NCBI GenBank assembly: GCA_015056625.1
Contig: SVFY01000002.1
Coordinates: forward strand, 159,488 to 223,487
Reading direction: 5' to 3'
Source: Butyrivibrio sp.
GTDB lineage: Bacteria > Bacillota > Clostridia > Lachnospirales > Lachnospiraceae
DNA: 64,000 nucleotides
The notes under the pieces are model-generated. The model was not told the origin of the DNA. It did no database searches and was given only the letters and a program-made list of their open reading frames with translations. The translations under genes were made by a program, and so were the position numbers. Below are positions 3-9,859 of the stretch, piece by piece. Within the stretch, counting starts at the first letter, position 1. The number at the start of each line of letters is the position of its first letter.

Positions 3-692
3 CCTACTTTAGACGGATATCGTACTATTATCCATACATCCAAGCTTTATCAGCCATTTGTAAACTCAGTTATTACAACTATCCTTGGAACACTCCTTGG
101 ACTTGTAATGAGTACTTTGGGAGGCTATGTACTTTCTCAGTATGATATGCCAGGAAGAAATGCCCTTGCGTATTTCCTTCTTTTCACCATGATCTTCTCA
201 GGTGGTATGATCCCTGAGTACTTGGTAATGAAGCAGCTTGGCCTTGTAAATAAAATGTGGATCCTGGTTGTTAAGCATGGTATGAATGTTTATAACCTGG
301 TTCTTATGAGAAACTTCTTTGAAGGCATTCCGGGATCACTGTTTGAAGCTGCCAAGATCGATGGATGTTCTCCGATGGGAATCTTCTTTAAGATCGTCCT
401 TCCTCTTTCAAAAGCAGCTCTTGCATCAATCGGACTTATGTTTGCAGTAACAGTATGGAATGACTATTCAACAGTACAGATATACATCACAAATCGTGAT
501 CAGGTTAACTTCCAGTATATTCTGAGAGTTATGGTCATGGATGGTGATACGCCAACTACAGCATATAAGGTATCTCAGAGTACACTTTATTACTCAGCTA
601 TCGTATGTGCGATCCTTCCTTTCATGCTTCTGTATCCTTTCCTTCAGAAGTACTTTGTAAAGGGTGTTAATGTTGGTGCTGTAAAAGAGTGA
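3..692 (+). CDS. CUT1 sugar ABC transporter permease (LplC/YtcP-like), 5' end cut by window
   Basis: This is the inner-membrane permease subunit of a carbohydrate importer. The ORF track begins at an internal Met (108), but the frame stays open to the window edge and reads ...QPFVNSVITTILGTLLGLV before that Met. The NS..T stretch is typical of the first transmembrane part of the MalG-like domain, so the gene is truncated by the window and 108 is not its start. The permease EAA loop is visible as EAAKIDGCSPMGIFFKIVLP, the contact site for the ATPase. Several hydrophobic helices follow, and the tail ending FVKGVNVGAVKE is characteristic of the LplC/YtcP subgroup used for complex polysaccharide fragments. 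The partner permease and binding protein should lie upstream, outside the window. A hairpin follows the stop codon. The family call is firm; the substrate is inferred from the downstream esterase and GH43 genes. Confidence 0.9.
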   Translation, partial: PTLDGYRTIIHTSKLYQPFVNSVITTILGTLLGLVMSTLGGYVLSQYDMPGRNALAYFLLFTMIFSGGMIPEYLVMKQLGLVNKMWILVVKHGMNVYNLVLMRNFFEGIPGSLFEAAKIDGCSPMGIFFKIVLPLSKAALASIGLMFAVTVWNDYSTVQIYITNRDQVNFQYILRVMVMDGDTPTTAYKVSQSTLYYSAIVCAILPFMLLYPFLQKYFVKGVNVGAVKE

Positions 693-769: not shown

Positions 770-1492
770 ATGAGACATATTTTCTGGGCAGGAGATTCAA
801 CAGTTGCCTGCAATAAGTTTAATACATATCCCCAGACCGGGATTGCTCAGGCTTTTGACAGATATACAAAAGAAGACGTGGTTATAGTCAACCATGCAGT
901 CAACGGCAGGAGTACCAAGAGCTTTATTGACGAGAGCAGGCTGGCTGCTATTTACAATGACATAACTGAAGGTGATTACCTTTTTATCCAGTTTGGTCAC
1001 AATGATGAAAAGATAAATGACCCCACAAGATACACTGACCCCCACGGTGAGTTTATCGTAAATCTTGGGAAATTTGTAAATGTAGCGAGAAATAAGAAAG
1101 CATATCCAGTGTTTATTACATCTGTTGAGAGAAGGCTCTTTGATGAAGAGGGAAAGCTTAAGCCTTCAGAACATACAGAGTACGTAAAGGGTATGAAGGA
1201 GGCTGGAGAAAAGTTTAATGTCCCGGTGGTGGATCTTTTTACTATGAGCCGAAGCTTTCTTGAAAAATGCGGAGATGAAGAATCCAGAAAGTACTACATG
1301 AATCTTAAAGAAGGTGAAGCTAAGTGGGCTCCTGAAGGACTTACTGACAATTCCCATCTTAAGTACGAGGGAGCAATGCTGTATGCGGGAATGATAGCAA
1401 AGGAACTTGTGGATCTTGGAGACCACTATGAGAGCCTTATTGCGGATAAGGTTATTCTTGATGGCTCCATGAACATAGAAACAAATGGATAA
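770..1492 (+). CDS. SGNH/GDSL hydrolase, rhamnogalacturonan acetylesterase-like (CE12-type)
   Basis: A 240-residue protein with the blocks of SGNH esterases in order: GDST with Ser10 as likely nucleophile, the Asn-containing AVNGRS near residue 44, GHND at 76-79, and the C-terminal DNSH with Asp193 and His196 completing the triad. The arrangement resembles CE12 rhamnogalacturonan/xylan acetylesterases such as RhgT. These remove O-acetyl groups so that glycosidases can act. No signal peptide is present, so it probably works in the cytoplasm on imported oligosaccharides. An upstream TTTAGGAG is placed well for the ATG. It lies 12 bases before the first GH43 gene, which supports co-transcription. 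The fold and catalysis are clear; the exact acetylated substrate is inferred. Confidence 0.85.
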   Translation: MRHIFWAGDSTVACNKFNTYPQTGIAQAFDRYTKEDVVIVNHAVNGRSTKSFIDESRLAAIYNDITEGDYLFIQFGHNDEKINDPTRYTDPHGEFIVNLGKFVNVARNKKAYPVFITSVERRLFDEEGKLKPSEHTEYVKGMKEAGEKFNVPVVDLFTMSRSFLEKCGDEESRKYYMNLKEGEAKWAPEGLTDNSHLKYEGAMLYAGMIAKELVDLGDHYESLIADKVILDGSMNIETNG

Positions 1493-1504: not shown

Positions 1505-3136
1505 ATGAGATTATCAGATCTTGGAAATGGCAGATTTAGAAATCCTGTGCTTTTTGCAGATTACAGCGACCCTGACGTAATAAGAGTCGTTGATACTTTT
1601 TACATGACTGCCAGCAGCTTCAACTACACACCAGGTCTTCCAATACTTACTTCAAAGGACCTGGTAAACTGGGAGCTTGTTAATTATGCACTGGATAATA
1701 TCAAAGAGGAAAGATATGATATCCCAAGGCATTCAGAAGGAGTCTGGGCTCCGGCGATAAGATTTCATGACGATATGTTTTATATTTACTATGGAATGCC
1801 TGACGAAGGCTACTACGTAGTAAGAACTAAAGATCCCCTTGGTAAGTGGGATGAGCCGGTTTGTGTTCTTGAAGGAAAGGGACTTATAGATCCCTGTCCC
1901 TTCTGGGATGATGATGGAAAAGCCTATATTGTACATGGCTATGCCAAGAGCAGGATCGGGTTTAAGAGCATTCTTGGAATCTTTGAAATGAGTCCTGATG
2001 GACTTAAAGCTGTTTCAGAAGATCATTTCATTTTTGATGGTAATGACCCAAAACATCCTGCAGTTACAATTGAAGGCCCCAAGATCTATAAAAGAGATGG
2101 ATATTATTATATCTGGGCTCCAGCGGGAGGTGTAAGACCTGGATACCAGGTTGTGCTTAGAAGCCGTGATATTCATGGCCCTTACGAGATAAGGACAGTA
2201 TTAGACCAGGGCCGCAGCGTTATAAATGGACCTCATCAGGGAGGTCTTGTAGATACTGAGGATGGGAAAGAGTATTTCCTGCATTTTCAGGACAGAGGTC
2301 TCTACGGCAGGATATGCCACCTTCAGCCGGTTTCCTGGAAGGATGAATGGCCGGTAGTTGGAGACGATAAAACTGGAACCGGCTGCGGCGAACCGGTTTA
2401 TGAGATGGATATTCCTGTAAAAAGAGATGCTGGCTATGAGAGGACATATCTATCTTCATCAGATGACTTTGAAGGCGGAAAATATGGACTTATGTGGCAG
2501 TGGCTTGGAAACCACAATAGCTCTTTTTATGGGAAAACTGATAAAGAAAATGGACTTCGCCTATATGCTCTTAATCTTTCAAAGGAGAAAGAGCCAGTCA
2601 TTTGGAAAAGCGCCAATGTTCTGACTCAGAAGATAATATATCCGTTATTTGATTGTGACATAAGCTTTAGAGTCTTAAATCTTAAGGATGGAGACAGGGC
2701 AGGGGTATGCATGACTGGAGGGCAGTATATCACAGCCTATGTCGAAAGAACAAATGGCGATCTTGAGCTTAAGGTTGCAAAGTCTGTAGGCGGTGATGGC
2801 GATAAAAAAGAAGAAGTCTTTAGCTCTTTTTTGCTTAAAGAGGTAATTAAGGATCCTGAAGATATAAGTATCAGGATGAGATTTGGATATGATGAAGAAG
2901 TAAGCGGAGTTGATCTTTACTATCAGGATGTAAATGTTCCCTACAGCGGAAAGAATCCGCATCTGTCCATGTATCTGATCCTTCCTGATGGCGGTTTAAA
3001 GGATCTTTCCGTGAACTTTGAACCATTAGATCACACCTGGGTAGGAGCCAAGATCGGTATATTTGCGCTTTCTAAAAATGTAGCTAAGGATCCTGGCTTT
3101 GCTGATTTTCACTATGTGACTGTAAATGAATTGTAA
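1505..3136 (+). CDS. Family 43 glycoside hydrolase (beta-xylosidase/arabinofuranosidase type)
   Basis: A 543-residue two-domain enzyme. The N-terminal five-bladed propeller carries the three GH43 acidic residues: the base in YSDPDV (about Asp22), the pKa-modulating Asp129 in LIDPC and the acid Glu190 in IEGP. WAP and the aromatic-rich YYYIWAP segment are also typical. Residues about 320-540 match the concanavalin-A-like beta-sandwich found at the C-terminus of beta-xylosidases (the DFEGG..MWQW..N region and the closing IGIFALS). No signal peptide is seen, so the enzyme is cytoplasmic and acts on imported short oligosaccharides. It sits between the esterase and the ankyrin-GH43 gene with short spacing. 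The family is certain; whether it removes xylose, arabinose or another pentose cannot be decided from sequence. Confidence 0.92.
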   Translation: MRLSDLGNGRFRNPVLFADYSDPDVIRVVDTFYMTASSFNYTPGLPILTSKDLVNWELVNYALDNIKEERYDIPRHSEGVWAPAIRFHDDMFYIYYGMPDEGYYVVRTKDPLGKWDEPVCVLEGKGLIDPCPFWDDDGKAYIVHGYAKSRIGFKSILGIFEMSPDGLKAVSEDHFIFDGNDPKHPAVTIEGPKIYKRDGYYYIWAPAGGVRPGYQVVLRSRDIHGPYEIRTVLDQGRSVINGPHQGGLVDTEDGKEYFLHFQDRGLYGRICHLQPVSWKDEWPVVGDDKTGTGCGEPVYEMDIPVKRDAGYERTYLSSSDDFEGGKYGLMWQWLGNHNSSFYGKTDKENGLRLYALNLSKEKEPVIWKSANVLTQKIIYPLFDCDISFRVLNLKDGDRAGVCMTGGQYITAYVERTNGDLELKVAKSVGGDGDKKEEVFSSFLLKEVIKDPEDISIRMRFGYDEEVSGVDLYYQDVNVPYSGKNPHLSMYLILPDGGLKDLSVNFEPLDHTWVGAKIGIFALSKNVAKDPGFADFHYVTVNEL

Positions 3137-3154: not shown

Positions 3155-5095
3155 ATGGAACAATTCCAAAAGAAAAGACTTGCTTCATATATTGATGAAA
3201 AGGACCTTGGGAAAGTAAGGCAGATCCTTATAGATGACCCTAACCTGATTGATGCGGACCTGTTTTTTGCAGCGGCAAAAACAGGAGACTTGCCACTTGT
3301 AAGGTATCTTGTTGAGTACTCAAGGATAAGCCTTAATGAATATGACAGTGACCACAGACATGTGCTTTTTTATGCTGCTATGTCAGGAAATCTGGAACTA
3401 TTTAAATATCTTGTTGAAAAGTGCGGTATGGACCCTCTTGAGGGGGATAAAAATCTTATTACCTGCTGGGATATTGTCCATGACAGTTTTCCAGAGATCG
3501 ATAAGTATCTGGAAGAGAGATTTAAAGCAGGATATGAGCAATTTTACAAAAATCCCATAAGAACAGGCTTTTTCCCGGATCCTTCAATCTGCAGAGTTGG
3601 AAGTGACTACTACATGGTAAATTCTTCCTTTATCTTTTTTCCATGTATTCCAATTTCTCACTCAAGGGACCTTGTTCACTGGGAAATAATCGGTCATGCC
3701 ATCACTGATCCAAAGTGGGCTTATCTGGATAAGCTGGAAGGTGGACGAGGCTACTGGGCTCCTGATATTTCTTACCATGATGGAAGATTTTATATTACAG
3801 CAACCTACAGGCTAAACGATGTTCCACCGGTGTATAGGCGCCAGATCGTGGTATCTTCAGACAAACCACAGGGCCCTTACACAGAGCCTGTATTCATAGA
3901 CGAAGATGGCATCGATCCCAGTATTTTTAATGACGATGACGGGAAAAGATACATGCTCCTAAACAGAGGAGCCAGGATATTTGAGCTTGATAAGACTGCA
4001 ACCAAAAAGATATCTGACGCGACGCTTTTGTTTTATGGAGACCATAAGAGAGCTCCTGAGGGCCCCCATCTTTATAAAAAGGATGGCTATTACTACCTTT
4101 TGGAGGCAGAGGGCGGAACAGGCCCAGGCCACAGGGTGACTGTGTCAAGGTCAAAAGAGCTTTTTGGAGAATATACTCCCTGTCCCTATAACCCCATAAT
4201 GAGGCAAAAGGACGATAAAGCAGCCCTTCAAAGATGTGGCCACGGTGATCTTGTGGATACCCCTGATGGCAGATGGTACATGGTATATCTTTGCGGCAGG
4301 ATGATAGGAGATGGATACAGCGTTTTAGGAAGAGAAACAGCACTTGATCCTGTCACCTGGACGCCTGATGGCTGGCCTTTAGTTAATGATCTTAAGGGTC
4401 CGTCTGCTATGCAGAAAAAGCCATTTCCAGAAATTGAAGCTGCTGAAAATATGAACACGTCCGAGATTTCCCCTTGCGGACTATTTTTGGATCACATGAC
4501 ACCAAGACCTTTTGAAGATGGTGCGGTAAAATGCAGTGTGACTTATGAAAATGGAACAGCTATAAGAAGCTATGCTATAAGGGGTAGCAGACATGCACTT
4601 TCAAAAGTGGAAAGCAGAAATATTGTGCTAAGAAGGCAGACCTCTTTTAAATTCAGATATAGCGTTTTATTAGATATTCCGCAAATGCATGAAGGGCAGA
4701 GCGCAGGAATAACAGGTTACTACGATGAGAATACTTTTTTCGAGTTTGGAATAATGAAAAAAGAAGGCGGCATTTATGTTTACTCAAATGAGCATATTGG
4801 CGATCGGGATAAGACTATTATCAGTGATGCTGCAATACCTGAAGTTACAGAAGCTGTCTGCTTTAACGTGGACACGGATTACTTTACAAGGGTGCTGTCA
4901 TATAGTACCTTGAGTAGTGGAAAAACCAGTCATGCAAAGATACATGTAACACTTGAGAATGTAAATTATCTTTGTGATGAGGGACTTAAAAAGGGCAAGA
5001 GATTTACAGGTGCGCTTGTTGGCATGTATGCAGTTCGCCTGGCAGAAGAGCTTACAGCGTTCTTTCATCATGAAAAGTACGAGGATTTAATATAA
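3155..5095 (+). CDS. Ankyrin-repeat/GH43 fusion glycosidase
   Basis: A 646-residue protein whose first about 125 residues are not glycosidase. They show ankyrin-type helix-turn-helix repeats: DLFFAAAKTGDLPLVRYLVE, then VLFYAAMSGNLELFKYLVE, then a degenerate third unit ending in FPEIDKYLEERF. From about residue 135 a GH43 propeller begins, with all three catalytic acids present (FPDPS Asp142, GIDPS Asp254, PEGP Glu302). A C-terminal beta-sandwich follows after about residue 440. No signal peptide or membrane segment is visible, so it should be cytoplasmic. The reading frame is continuous across the junction and the GH43 part starts normally, so this is a genuine fusion and not a frameshift join. 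Ankyrin repeats usually bind proteins; the partner is unknown. The gene ends 2 bases before the ABC exporter. Confidence 0.9.
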   Translation: MEQFQKKRLASYIDEKDLGKVRQILIDDPNLIDADLFFAAAKTGDLPLVRYLVEYSRISLNEYDSDHRHVLFYAAMSGNLELFKYLVEKCGMDPLEGDKNLITCWDIVHDSFPEIDKYLEERFKAGYEQFYKNPIRTGFFPDPSICRVGSDYYMVNSSFIFFPCIPISHSRDLVHWEIIGHAITDPKWAYLDKLEGGRGYWAPDISYHDGRFYITATYRLNDVPPVYRRQIVVSSDKPQGPYTEPVFIDEDGIDPSIFNDDDGKRYMLLNRGARIFELDKTATKKISDATLLFYGDHKRAPEGPHLYKKDGYYYLLEAEGGTGPGHRVTVSRSKELFGEYTPCPYNPIMRQKDDKAALQRCGHGDLVDTPDGRWYMVYLCGRMIGDGYSVLGRETALDPVTWTPDGWPLVNDLKGPSAMQKKPFPEIEAAENMNTSEISPCGLFLDHMTPRPFEDGAVKCSVTYENGTAIRSYAIRGSRHALSKVESRNIVLRRQTSFKFRYSVLLDIPQMHEGQSAGITGYYDENTFFEFGIMKKEGGIYVYSNEHIGDRDKTIISDAAIPEVTEAVCFNVDTDYFTRVLSYSTLSSGKTSHAKIHVTLENVNYLCDEGLKKGKRFTGALVGMYAVRLAEELTAFFHHEKYEDLI

Positions 5096-5097
5096 CC

Positions 5098-6873
5098 ATG
5101 GGAAATACTAATCATGATACATCGGTATATTTTGAAAGCTATGAAAAACACAAAGGAAAGCCCTTAATGATACTTATTGGGCTATATAAAGGAATGTACT
5201 CCAATTTCTTCTGGTCCACATTCTTTTATATAATAAAGCACAGCCCTGTATGGGTGCTTCCAATAGTTACTGCAAACATCATAAACAGTGTCACAAATGC
5301 TGATCCTAATGTTTACAGGATAATTGCCCTGGATGCTGTTTTGATGGTAATTCTTTTGATACTAAACGTTCCAATGAATCAGCTTCATATTCATTTTAGG
5401 AGCAGAGCGGTAAGGAAAGTTGAAGCAGGTCTTAGAAGTGCACTTGTTCATAAGATCCAGGTTTTATCCATACCACATCAAAAGGAGATGCTCTCAGGAA
5501 GACTTCAGTCCAAGATAATAAGGGATGTGGAGTCTGTGGAGACACTTTCAGATCAGCTTTTTGTATCACTTATCAATATATTCATAAACGTGATCGTTGC
5601 TCTTTCTGTAACTATTTCTAAGAGTATTATTGTTTTTTTGTTTTTTCTGTTTACAGTTCCTATTGCTGCGGTACTGGTTGTTGGCTTTAAAAAGCCAATA
5701 AAGAAGCACAATCAGAAGTTCAGAAAAGAGATGGAAGAAACCAGCGCCAAGGTTATGGAGATGGTGCAGCTGGTTCCTGTAACAAGGGCCCACGGTCTTG
5801 AAAATGAAGAGATAAGCAGGATGGATACCCAGGTGGATCTAATTGCCCAGGCTGGCTATTCCCTGGATATCATACAGGGGCAGTTCGGAGCTGTAAGCTG
5901 GGCTATTTTCCAGATAGCTCAGGTTCTTTGCCTTACCTTTACCGCTGTTTTGTCTGTAAAAGGAAAGGTTCAGGTTGGAGATGTGGTCCTGTACCAGAGC
6001 TACTTCACTACCATCGTAGGTCAGATATCATCTCTTTTGACACTTCTTCCAATAATTTCAAAGGGCCTTGAGTCAGTTACAAGTATTGGCGAGATTTTAG
6101 AGTCACCCTATGTTGAAGACACAGAAGGTAAAAGCGATATTGGCCCATTAAAGGGAGAGTTTGATTTTGAAAACATTGGCTATGCTTATCCTGACAGCCA
6201 GGATGAGATAATTTCAGGGCTTACATTTCACGTAAATCCTGGAGAAACTGTTGCCTTTGTTGGCGAGTCCGGGGCAGGAAAGAGTACCATCATGAACCTT
6301 CTTGTGGGCTTTGGAATGCCATCTAGTGGTAAACTTCTTATTGATGGCAGGGACATAAAGGATATAAGCCTTCAGAGCTACAGAAAACAGCTTGCAGTTG
6401 TTCCTCAGAACACCATTCTTTTTTCAGGGACAATAAGAGATAATATTCTTTATGGAGCCAGTGATATATCTGAGGAAAAGCTTTCCCAGGTCATTGAAGA
6501 AGCCGGGCTTAAAAGCGTTATAGATAAGCTTCCTGCTGGGCTTGATACTGTGGTAGGAGAGCACGGCGATAAGCTATCCGGAGGACAAAAACAAAGGATT
6601 TCTATAGCAAGAGCCCTTATAAGAAACCCCAAGGTAATCCTGCTTGACGAGGCTACATCAGCTCTTGATGCTATCTCAGAAAAAGAAGTCAGCTACGCCC
6701 TTGACCATATTTCAAGCAAGTGTACAACCTTCATTGTGGCCCACAGGCTGGCAACCATAGAAAAGGCTGACAAGATAATCGTTATTGATAATGGCACCAT
6801 TGCTGAGGTTGGAAGCTTTAAAGAGCTCATGGATAAAAAGGGAATATTCTACAGAATGGAGATGACAAAATGA
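5098..6873 (+). CDS. ABC exporter half-transporter, fused permease-ATPase
   Basis: A 591-residue type IV ABC protein. The N-terminal membrane domain (about residues 20-330) has six hydrophobic segments and the EAGLRSALVHKI intracellular coupling region. The ATPase domain carries Walker A GESGAGKST at about 389, the signature LSGGQKQR at about 493, Walker B VILLDEAT with Asp517/Glu518, and the H-loop VAHRL. All catalytic motifs are intact. Such proteins normally export lipids, drugs, peptides or glycans as homo- or heterodimers. Here the gene lies inside a sugar-degradation operon, 2 bases after the ankyrin-GH43 gene and overlapping the next start codon, so its transport role may be linked to sugar use. 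No partner half-transporter is adjacent, which suggests a homodimer. Substrate unknown. Confidence 0.9.
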   Translation: MGNTNHDTSVYFESYEKHKGKPLMILIGLYKGMYSNFFWSTFFYIIKHSPVWVLPIVTANIINSVTNADPNVYRIIALDAVLMVILLILNVPMNQLHIHFRSRAVRKVEAGLRSALVHKIQVLSIPHQKEMLSGRLQSKIIRDVESVETLSDQLFVSLINIFINVIVALSVTISKSIIVFLFFLFTVPIAAVLVVGFKKPIKKHNQKFRKEMEETSAKVMEMVQLVPVTRAHGLENEEISRMDTQVDLIAQAGYSLDIIQGQFGAVSWAIFQIAQVLCLTFTAVLSVKGKVQVGDVVLYQSYFTTIVGQISSLLTLLPIISKGLESVTSIGEILESPYVEDTEGKSDIGPLKGEFDFENIGYAYPDSQDEIISGLTFHVNPGETVAFVGESGAGKSTIMNLLVGFGMPSSGKLLIDGRDIKDISLQSYRKQLAVVPQNTILFSGTIRDNILYGASDISEEKLSQVIEEAGLKSVIDKLPAGLDTVVGEHGDKLSGGQKQRISIARALIRNPKVILLDEATSALDAISEKEVSYALDHISSKCTTFIVAHRLATIEKADKIIVIDNGTIAEVGSFKELMDKKGIFYRMEMTK

Positions 6874-7712
6874 TGCAATTAGGAATAAGATTTCACGACA
6901 CAAAAGAGATTCCATTTGAAGACAGACTTAAAAGTATCAAAGATCAGGGCTTTGACTGCGTTCATATAGCTCTTTCAAAGGTACCTGGTTTTACTGCCGA
7001 TACAGACGCACTTAATCCTGGTTATGCAATGTATTTGAGAAATGCTTTCAGGAAGGCTGACCTGGATGTGGCAGTTCTTGGCTGCTATCTTAATCTTGCA
7101 AATCCCAATCAGGAAGCCCTTAAAAAGACTCAGGAGAAGTATTTTGCTCACCTGCGATTTGCCAGCATCCTTGGATGTGGCATGGTGGGAACAGAGACTG
7201 GTGCTCCAAATGAAGCATATTCCTATGACAAGGAGGCCTGCCATTCAAAAGAGGCTCTGGAAACCTTTATTACAGGCTTAAAGCCTGTTGTAAAGTGTGC
7301 TGAAAATATGGGCGTGATCATTGCCATCGAGCCAGTTTACAGACACATAGTCTATGATGCAAAAAGGGCAAGAGAGGTACTTGACAGGATTGAGTCACCT
7401 AATCTTCAGATAATATTTGATCCGGTAAACCTTCTTTGGACCGACAACTATGAAAACAGATATGAAGTTATTGATGAGGCCATAGACCTTCTTGGGAAGG
7501 ATATCGCCATGATACACCTGAAGGATTCGATCCTTATGGAGGATAGCGTAAAGAGCGTCGGCTGCGGATTTGGTGAGATGAAGTATGACAGTATCATAAA
7601 ATTCGCACTGGAGAAAAAGCCTTTTATTCACGCAACTTTAGAAGATACCAAGCCTGAAACAGCAGCGCAGTCCCTTAAGTGTATAAAAGATGTGATAGCT
7701 TCCTTATCATAA
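6870..7712 (+). CDS. Sugar phosphate isomerase/epimerase-like TIM barrel protein
   Basis: A 280-residue protein of the xylose-isomerase-like/AP endonuclease family 2 TIM barrel group. Recognisable parts are the opening MQLGIRFHD, the GCGMVGTETGAP strand end, the metal-ligand Glu in IAIEPVYRH, the Asp/Asn pair in IIFDPVNLL, and HLKDS with a metal-binding His. These enzymes isomerise or epimerise keto-sugars or related acids using a divalent metal. The ATG overlaps the stop codon of the ABC exporter (ATGA), so the two are translationally coupled. It ends the first operon just before a strong terminator. The family is well supported; the substrate is probably a pentose or uronic acid derivative, but this is a guess from context. 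Confidence 0.85.
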   Translation: MMQLGIRFHDTKEIPFEDRLKSIKDQGFDCVHIALSKVPGFTADTDALNPGYAMYLRNAFRKADLDVAVLGCYLNLANPNQEALKKTQEKYFAHLRFASILGCGMVGTETGAPNEAYSYDKEACHSKEALETFITGLKPVVKCAENMGVIIAIEPVYRHIVYDAKRAREVLDRIESPNLQIIFDPVNLLWTDNYENRYEVIDEAIDLLGKDIAMIHLKDSILMEDSVKSVGCGFGEMKYDSIIKFALEKKPFIHATLEDTKPETAAQSLKCIKDVIASLS

Positions 7713-7747: not shown

Positions 7748-9859
7748 TCATTTCTGCAGATGCTCAAGCTGTTTTGTCAGGACATCTGGAACTTCGATCT
7801 CATCCTTCTTGAGCTTATGTATAGCGTTGCTTATAGGCTTGGCAACATTGTTTATGTGGGCTACGTAGTGGTTTATGAGTTCGGTGTACTGAGGGTTATC
7901 GCTTAGTTTTTCCCTTACTTCCTTTGAGAAAGGACAGAAGGTAAACAGAATTTCTCTTGCAACTTTATTGAGCCTTGGTGAACTGTTTGACTCAAATTTT
8001 ATATAGGCAAGATAATCGCCAATAAAGACATTTTTGTAGTTGTTAGAGAACTTTTTTAGGTCTGTTCTAAGCTTTTCTTTGTTCTCAGAAGACAGAGCAG
8101 AGTTCTTTTTAAAGAACTGAAGATAATCGCAGTACATGGAGGTCAGGGACGGATCTGTGACATCGTTCCAGTGAACGCCCTGAACTGTCTTGCACATTTC
8201 CCATCTGAATTCTCCAAAGAGCTTTATCATGGACTCTTCGGTGTTTTCTGTATTGAAGATAGAAACGATCATTCTTGCTTTGGTTCTTCTGTTCTTGCCA
8301 TTTATTTCCTGCCAAAGACTTGCTCTGCTTCCTACATTTGGCATCAGGATCATGTAAGGAGTTATATCATCGTCATAGTAGAGCTGTGTGATCCCGATCT
8401 CAGGATCTGAAAATACAGCCTGCCTGCAAAATACGCTGTAATCAATGGATCTTATCATTTCAAAGTAGCCATTTACCTTGCTTGATGTAAGGTATGCCAT
8501 ATCGAGAGGGCGAAGCACGTTCTGGGAGTCAAACACAGGAACAAAGGATGAGATCCTTCCGAAGGTCATTCTGTTACCAAGTGAAAAGAGATTATGGATC
8601 TCGAATTCCAGACGCTTCATGGAATTGTTCATCATAGCTTCCATCTGTGCTTCATTTATTGACCCGCTGGTTTTTTGCTCCCTTAGGTATGTGGGCCAGT
8701 CCTGATCAAATTCGTTCTTGGATGGATCAGCTTCCAGCATATAGACCTTTTTGAGCCACTCGTATAAGAGCAGTACATTTCCGTCAGGATCGGGAGTGTA
8801 GGACTTTGCCATGTTGCACAGGATGGTAGTATTTTTTTCTCCTGCCAGTTCTTCATCAACAAAACCAAACATGAAGAACATCTTAAGCTCTATAGGAAGG
8901 TTTTCATCTGTAAGACTCTTTAAAAAGCATGGAGTGAAGATCTCATAAAATGAAGTGGTAATATTCCTTCTAAGTGCTCTGGCTTCATCGGATGAGTCAT
9001 ATCTGTTTTCGTTAGCTTTAAATTCTGATATCTGTTCTTCGAATTTAGCAGCTGTTTCCGGTGGAACAGCAGAGTAGTTCAAAATAGTTGTAAGGGCATT
9101 GACGATGGTAGTAGCGGGCTCTCCGCCAGACTCTGATCTTTCAAGGTCATCCAGCTTTGCCCTTATCATCTTCATGGTCTGCCTGAAGGCTGTGGTCTTT
9201 TTGTTTAAGGTTTTTCTATAGGCATTTATTTCCTGAACATCCTCTGAAAGTCCATTGTAAATGGTGAAAGAAGTCATGACTATTCCGACAGCTATGTCCA
9301 TGCTTAAGGGATAGAAGACCTTTTTTAGTGATGCTTCATTGTCCTTTAAACTGCGGCAATAATTTACTGCCCACTCAGGAATCCTTCTGGGCTTTTCAGG
9401 AGCAATTATTTCCTCCATTTCAGGGAATGGCTTTTCTGGTTCGCCAACCTTAATGCAAAGACTTGGGTAATCAGCATAGTCTGCCATAAGCTTCTCATAT
9501 TCACCAATGGCAATGTCGTATTCCTGGTCAAAAACAGCGCAAACAGAAGTAGCACTGCTTATGGCTGTGCTTGCCAGTATAGGAGCTATTTTGGGATTGC
9601 TTCGGATAATGTTAGGAATATCGTCTAAAGATTCAAAGGGATATGAATAGACAGCAGATTCTTCTAGTGCTTCATAGGTATAGATATAGGGCTTTCCCGG
9701 TTTTTCAACAGCGCCGGCAAAACCACCTACTGTAAGCTTTATATCAGTATTTATGCTGGATACTTTTATTGATCCTTTTATGACGACTTCAATGGAATTA
9801 ACTTCATCTGTGCCCGCTTTATGAAGTATCTGACCTTTTTCAAGTTTAAGAATGCCCAT
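7748..9859 (-). CDS. Large unknown protein with cyclic-nucleotide-binding-like N-terminus
   Basis: A 703-residue soluble protein whose function I do not recognise. Its first about 110 residues read like a Crp-type beta-roll: ILKLEKGQILHKAGTDEVNSIEVVIKGSIKV resembles the opening strands of cNMP-binding domains. The usual phosphate-binding cassette (GE..L..RS) is not present, and no DNA-binding helix-turn-helix follows, so it is not an ordinary Crp regulator. The remainder looks mostly alpha-helical, with acidic and Lys/Glu-rich stretches and no signal peptide or membrane segment. It is preceded on the minus strand by tmcAL with a 72-base gap and may be co-transcribed with it. A regulatory or scaffold role is possible but unproven. 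Confidence 0.75.
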   Translation of the reverse strand: MGILKLEKGQILHKAGTDEVNSIEVVIKGSIKVSSINTDIKLTVGGFAGAVEKPGKPYIYTYEALEESAVYSYPFESLDDIPNIIRSNPKIAPILASTAISSATSVCAVFDQEYDIAIGEYEKLMADYADYPSLCIKVGEPEKPFPEMEEIIAPEKPRRIPEWAVNYCRSLKDNEASLKKVFYPLSMDIAVGIVMTSFTIYNGLSEDVQEINAYRKTLNKKTTAFRQTMKMIRAKLDDLERSESGGEPATTIVNALTTILNYSAVPPETAAKFEEQISEFKANENRYDSSDEARALRRNITTSFYEIFTPCFLKSLTDENLPIELKMFFMFGFVDEELAGEKNTTILCNMAKSYTPDPDGNVLLLYEWLKKVYMLEADPSKNEFDQDWPTYLREQKTSGSINEAQMEAMMNNSMKRLEFEIHNLFSLGNRMTFGRISSFVPVFDSQNVLRPLDMAYLTSSKVNGYFEMIRSIDYSVFCRQAVFSDPEIGITQLYYDDDITPYMILMPNVGSRASLWQEINGKNRRTKARMIVSIFNTENTEESMIKLFGEFRWEMCKTVQGVHWNDVTDPSLTSMYCDYLQFFKKNSALSSENKEKLRTDLKKFSNNYKNVFIGDYLAYIKFESNSSPRLNKVAREILFTFCPFSKEVREKLSDNPQYTELINHYVAHINNVAKPISNAIHKLKKDEIEVPDVLTKQLEHLQK

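Follow-up and report, generated by a model that had tools for sequence, protein, structure and literature searches.

What does an ankyrin domain contribute to a glycosidase that acts inside the cell? The question is raised by a gene at positions 3155–5095 (plus strand) of a 64,000 bp stretch of Butyrivibrio DNA (the window, by which we mean the entire stretch analyzed), whose product joins ankyrin repeats to a GH43 catalytic domain. The usual accessory domain of a glycosidase is a carbohydrate-binding module on a secreted enzyme; the arrangement is out of the ordinary both in the kind of domain and in its location. We refer to this protein as GH43B and to the GH43 enzyme encoded immediately upstream as GH43A. 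The reading that we favor, with about even confidence, is that the ankyrin domain is an integral part of its own enzyme, rigidly docked, and that it shapes the enzyme assembly and/or the mouth of the active site.

Domain architecture of GH43B

GH43B is encoded by a single open reading frame of 646 codons plus stop, and Pfam confirms both of the domains that a preliminary description of this DNA had seen fused in frame, while adding a C-terminal one that had been overlooked. There are thus three parts. The first, the ankyrin segment, matches Ank_2 at residues 21–94 (E 6.5e-9; 36.7 bits against a cut-off of 27.3), and also exceeds the curated Pfam cut-offs for Ank_4 (34.9 against 22.7 bits) and Ank_3 (26.9 against 22.3 bits); it is the sole Ank_2 match in the window's own genome, a 2.74 Mb draft in 28 contigs. 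Solved ankyrin proteins are among the PDB sequence matches of this domain, and the Pfam clan matches agree with the stacked antiparallel helix pairs of the predicted structure in identifying the N-terminus as a true ankyrin fold. The second is the GH43 five-bladed propeller (residues 131–408, positions 3545–4378, plus strand), identified by Pfam (Glyco_hydro_43, E 9.4e-85; 284.9 bits against a cut-off of 32.2), AlphaFold2 and Foldseek. Its three acidic residues, the Asp general base D142 (3578–3580), the Asp pKa modulator D254 (3914–3916) and the Glu general acid E302 (4058–4060), are invariant across a 68-row GH43 alignment, and the catalytic domain is complete, as first described. The third is the GH43_C2 (X19) beta-sandwich at residues 475–642 (4577–5080, plus strand; Pfam, E 1.2e-21, 77.8 bits), in which F617 aligns with the Phe preceding the TGAFVG motif of the GH43 beta-xylosidase EcXyl43 (8uws).

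The Pfam domain, the Asp/Asp/Glu triad and the propeller followed by a C-terminal beta-sandwich in the model place GH43B among the type III GH43 enzymes. No NCBIfam family scores above its cut-off for either GH43A or GH43B. Inspection of the GH43B N-terminus by eye reveals no signal peptide, in keeping with the original view of an intracellular enzyme and a fusion that is unusual for a glycosidase.

Predicted packing of the ankyrin domain

The structure of GH43B was predicted with AlphaFold2 from the 68-row alignment, giving a mean pLDDT of 94.3 and a pTM of 0.92 for the whole chain; this supersedes an earlier run on 27 close relatives in which the catalytic domain was poor (pLDDT 72, pTM 0.58). 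The ankyrin domain is modeled with pLDDT values of 96–98 as four helix pairs, an N-terminal cap plus three repeats, rather than the two clear units and degenerate third originally counted. The capping pair spans residues 2–27 (3158–3235; AlphaFold2 and alignment) and is absent from some relatives. It is followed by repeat 2 (helix pair at residues 34–55, 3254–3319), which ends with a conserved EYS motif, repeat 3 (residues 70–89, 3362–3421), the top-scoring single repeat, and repeat 4 (residues 104–123, 3464–3523), all on the plus strand; conservation and the model support all three repeats, and Pfam additionally supports repeats 2 and 3. The repeats are the better conserved part, with residues 36–108 averaging 2.75 bits per position against 2.27 for GH43_C2 and 1.60 for the cap. 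Four conserved ankyrin residues, E54, Y55, R68 and Y85, deviate from the ankyrin consensus as generally known.

There are two indications that the domain is held in place. First, confidence does not dip on passing from ankyrin domain to propeller, and there is no low-confidence linker at the junction between repeat 4 and GH43. Second, a freely placed ankyrin domain would by calculation lower the pTM to about 0.80–0.83, and the observed 0.92 arithmetically requires an ankyrin-to-enzyme error of about 5–6 Å, the pTM being an indirect measure of docking. On these grounds the prediction is of an ankyrin domain that sits docked against its own enzyme and does not swing freely. AlphaFold2 is capable of placing a domain confidently yet wrongly. 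The boundary between the two domains is clean enough for truncation and structural work.

Distribution and origin of the fusion

A scan of public genomes identified the same fusion at 28 loci, from Butyrivibrio isolates and metagenome-assembled genomes (MAGs), other Lachnospiraceae and one unclassified Clostridia MAG; matches ranking below these span the enzyme part only. Combining an ankyrin profile with a search for the enzyme part over 397 Lachnospiraceae genomes reveals the fusion in 29 of them, in many genera, plus one fragmented case. Ank_2 matches are present in 43 of 79 Butyrivibrio genomes, and in 35 of these the match lies within an open frame of 612–890 aa which, judged by its length, is the size of the fusion. 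A second family (f20), within a sample of the class, also carries it, in nine genomes of three genera.

Several relatives depart from this pattern. One Butyrivibrio MAG encodes an ankyrin-GH43 protein of 890 aa (L026, 3957–6626) whose linker and C2 regions contain low-complexity insertions, and four Butyrivibrio genomes (G011, G003, G065 and G013; L082, L084, L085 and L091) have strong ankyrin matches in frames of 368–393 aa, too short for the fusion. Two Prevotellaceae relatives of the enzyme (L077, 6231–9554; L078, 4813–8142) have about 590 extra N-terminal residues and represent a different fusion.

In a tree of the enzyme part the ankyrin-bearing sequences form a single clade (SH-aLRT 99), the sister of which consists of ankyrin-less BlXynB-type GH43 enzymes from Lachnospiraceae and Bacillus; one long-branch ankyrin-less sequence (L211) is placed inside the clade. 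A single clade with an ankyrin-less sister means that the domain was acquired a single time and then almost never lost, L211 being the one possible loss. All clade members other than L211 keep it, with GH43A variously fused, adjacent, unlinked or not found. Enzyme positions specific to the clade include residues 294–298 just before the general acid, residue 361 beside H363, residues 189–200, and the C2 loop containing F617. The proximity of several of them to catalytic motifs suggests that divergence of the catalytic region accompanied acquisition of the ankyrin domain.

The relationship between GH43A and GH43B

GH43A (1505–3136, plus strand) is a 543 aa protein with the Pfam architecture GH43-GH43_C2. 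It shares a frame with GH43B, and the two are separated by one stop and six codons (18 bases past the stop). GH43A adjoins GH43B at the majority of loci for which context is available, lying immediately upstream at most Butyrivibrio loci and in many other genera, and in two Bacillus genomes of the sister group it is directly upstream of a GH43B that has no ankyrin domain. Of the 40 genomes that encode GH43B, 39 have a GH43A-type gene, as against 12 of the remaining 357, and all nine genomes of the second family have one as well; this co-occurrence shows that GH43A and GH43B belong together functionally. Four genomes (G123, G467, G348 and G272) encode both enzymes in one chain of 1131–1189 aa, organized GH43-C2-Ank-GH43-C2, in which the capping pair is missing and the repeats come after the first enzyme's C2 domain via a short linker. 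A further locus (L163 in G171) has frames of 357 and 796 aa, with GH43A apparently split after its catalytic part and its C2 joined to the ankyrin-GH43B protein; G467, a near relative, has one full chain, and L163 may be either a frameshift or a real split.

These arrangements suggest that the ankyrin domain may dock the neighboring GH43A and hold the two enzymes together, such that two activities trim oligosaccharides in one complex. We regard this as possible but on balance doubtful. In its favor are the natural single chains, the adjacency and co-occurrence of the genes, and the GH43A tree, in which a single clade of fused forms is rejected (p-AU 0.0008). However, the GH43B tree does not reject such a clade (p-AU 0.64), and the proposal of at least three independent fusions was set aside on account of this disagreement. 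Co-occurrence was likewise dismissed as proof of contact between ankyrin domain and GH43A. First, all 11 genomes with only an ankyrin-less GH43B also carry a GH43A-type gene, and the co-occurrence therefore does not need the ankyrin domain. Second, the linked or fused lineage of GH43A is separate, in the GH43A tree, from most A genes of genomes in which ankyrin-GH43B is unlinked, and is absent from many genomes that retain ankyrin-GH43B; in G330 the matches are only at the level of paralogues, and the ankyrin domain is thus not confined to genomes with the linked lineage. Also against the docking of GH43A is the model, which would put the domain on its own catalytic unit. Loss of the capping pair was also considered as a mark of GH43A contact, GH43A being linked at 15 of the 17 loci without a cap and at 20 of the other 42 (Fisher p 0.007 before the tree is considered), but once the tree is taken into account this is unsupported despite the raw counts. 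The tether to the neighboring GH43 that was first suggested is therefore a mixed case: the 18-base gap, the adjacency and the four single chains are suggestive, while the missing lineage and the predicted docking speak against it.

A stronger form of the idea, which we hold more tentatively still, is that the ankyrin domain might be a dedicated assembly module mating two different cytoplasmic GH43 exo-enzymes, covalently or non-covalently according to lineage. If so, there would be an intracellular glycosidase complex with two activities in Gram-positive gut bacteria, which are otherwise assumed to use free cytosolic enzymes.

Other genes of the cluster

The remaining genes are those of an oligosaccharide import and degradation cluster. 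At the left end is a sugar ABC importer permease (3–692, plus strand; Pfam) cut by the start of the window, with a second permease and a lipoprotein-like open reading frame upstream of it in the genome, followed by a GDSL acetylesterase-like enzyme (770–1492, plus strand; Pfam and NCBIfam). To the right of GH43B are a xylose-isomerase-like TIM barrel protein resembling sugar epimerases (6870–7712, plus strand; Pfam and NCBIfam) and, between the two, an MsbA-type ABC exporter (5098–6873, plus strand; Pfam and NCBIfam), an exporter that sits within an import and degradation cluster and recurs beside the GH43 pair across many Lachnospiraceae genera. On the minus strand is a 703 aa protein (7748–9859), conserved beside the GH43 cluster in Butyrivibrio, whose only match is a sub-threshold one to a cyclic-nucleotide-binding domain (19.8 bits against a cut-off of 27.5). 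Further upstream (L237) a LacI regulator, the glucuronate isomerase UxaC and an altronate-dehydratase-type protein lie beside the importer, and these neighbors make uronic-acid-bearing oligosaccharides a plausible substrate.

Since ankyrin repeats serve generally to bind proteins, the domain could bind some other cell protein, such as the importer ATPase, a regulator or the ABC exporter, and so position the enzyme in the cell. The conserved departures from the ankyrin consensus and the frequent adjacency of the exporter and sugar permeases are compatible with this, but exporter, esterase and permease each vary among loci, leaving no partner that is constant, and the model docks the domain on the enzyme itself; we consider such binding unlikely. 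For the earlier suggestions of a tether to the esterase, the importer or the exporter, nothing other than gene order was found as evidence.

The ankyrin domain as a proposed docked part of the enzyme

We return to the docked domain. On this view GH43B, of the BlXynB lineage of GH43 glycosidases, would work in the cytoplasm as an exo-acting enzyme on imported oligosaccharides that probably derive from hemicellulose or pectin, and an ancestor of it acquired the N-terminal ankyrin domain once. According to the prediction, the domain packs rigidly onto its own catalytic unit near the beginning of the propeller, which is where the general base lies, and it would most likely fix the quaternary arrangement, the shape of the active-site mouth, or both. 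Where GH43A is adjacent or fused, it would also lie between the two enzymes and could hold a bifunctional unit. That the domain is kept whatever the linked partner most likely means that what it contacts does not vary, and the enzyme itself is the one such partner observed. Two observations weigh on the other side: the residues that set the clade apart near the active site can stem from a shift in substrate that had nothing to do with the ankyrin domain, and the existence of natural single chains argues for a function between two enzymes. More broadly, that a cytosolic GH43 enzyme carries a fixed ankyrin domain, gained once and kept in many rumen and gut Lachnospiraceae genera, suggests that intracellular trimming of oligosaccharides is organized by protein contacts.

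A variant in which the domain aids substrate binding, in the manner of a carbohydrate-binding module located next to the active site, seems to us very improbable. The final ankyrin helix stops about 19 residues ahead of D142, the model holds the domain rigidly in place, and the active-site loops differ in the ankyrin clade, but no sugar site is apparent in these results and ankyrin domains are not known to bind sugars. That two genes were joined by an error of assembly or annotation, for which no support was found beyond the draft state of the genome, can be dismissed, since independent isolates and MAGs of many genera share the fusion in one well-supported clade.

Comparison with known systems

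The nearest solved relative of GH43B is BlXynB, a GH43 enzyme of Bacillus licheniformis (PDB 6ms2, 6ms3), which is both its best sequence match (1e-122) and, as 6ms3, the best Foldseek match of the model (TM 0.92 on target, 41% identity). The two share the GH43 and GH43_C2 core, but BlXynB has no ankyrin domain, and the diagnostic residues of the ankyrin clade, several of them near catalytic motifs, differ in the ankyrin-less sister clade of BlXynB type. The combination of propeller, X19/GH43_C2 and Asp/Asp/Glu is likewise that of the GH43_11 and GH43_12 xylosidases and arabinofuranosidases with a C-terminal X19 domain (type III). Domain extensions of GH43 enzymes are mostly C-terminal, with one N-terminal case and none that is ankyrin, in the part of PMC6887791 drawn on here. 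Within the same genus, Butyrivibrio proteoclasticus has cytosolic GH43 enzymes, Xsa43H among them, for imported oligosaccharides, and some of these are multi-domain (PMC5217386); neither that article nor the genome paper (PMC2914790) mentions an ankyrin domain. Within the open-access literature, our search found no ankyrin-GH43 enzyme described, and in this sense multi-domain GH43 enzymes are already known and it is the ankyrin domain and the intracellular setting that are new.

The closest known parallel in mode of action, by analogy and not by kinship, is the ankyrin segment of the animal glutaminases KGA/GLS and GLS2, segments of which are also among the PDB sequence matches of the GH43B domain. 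These too are metabolic hydrolases, and three ankyrin helix pairs regulate them via enzyme assembly (PMC10912226). Their catalytic fold is unrelated, however, and their ankyrin segment is C-terminal, on a flexible linker and about 70 Å from the active sites (PMC10912226), whereas that of GH43B is N-terminal and predicted to be rigid.
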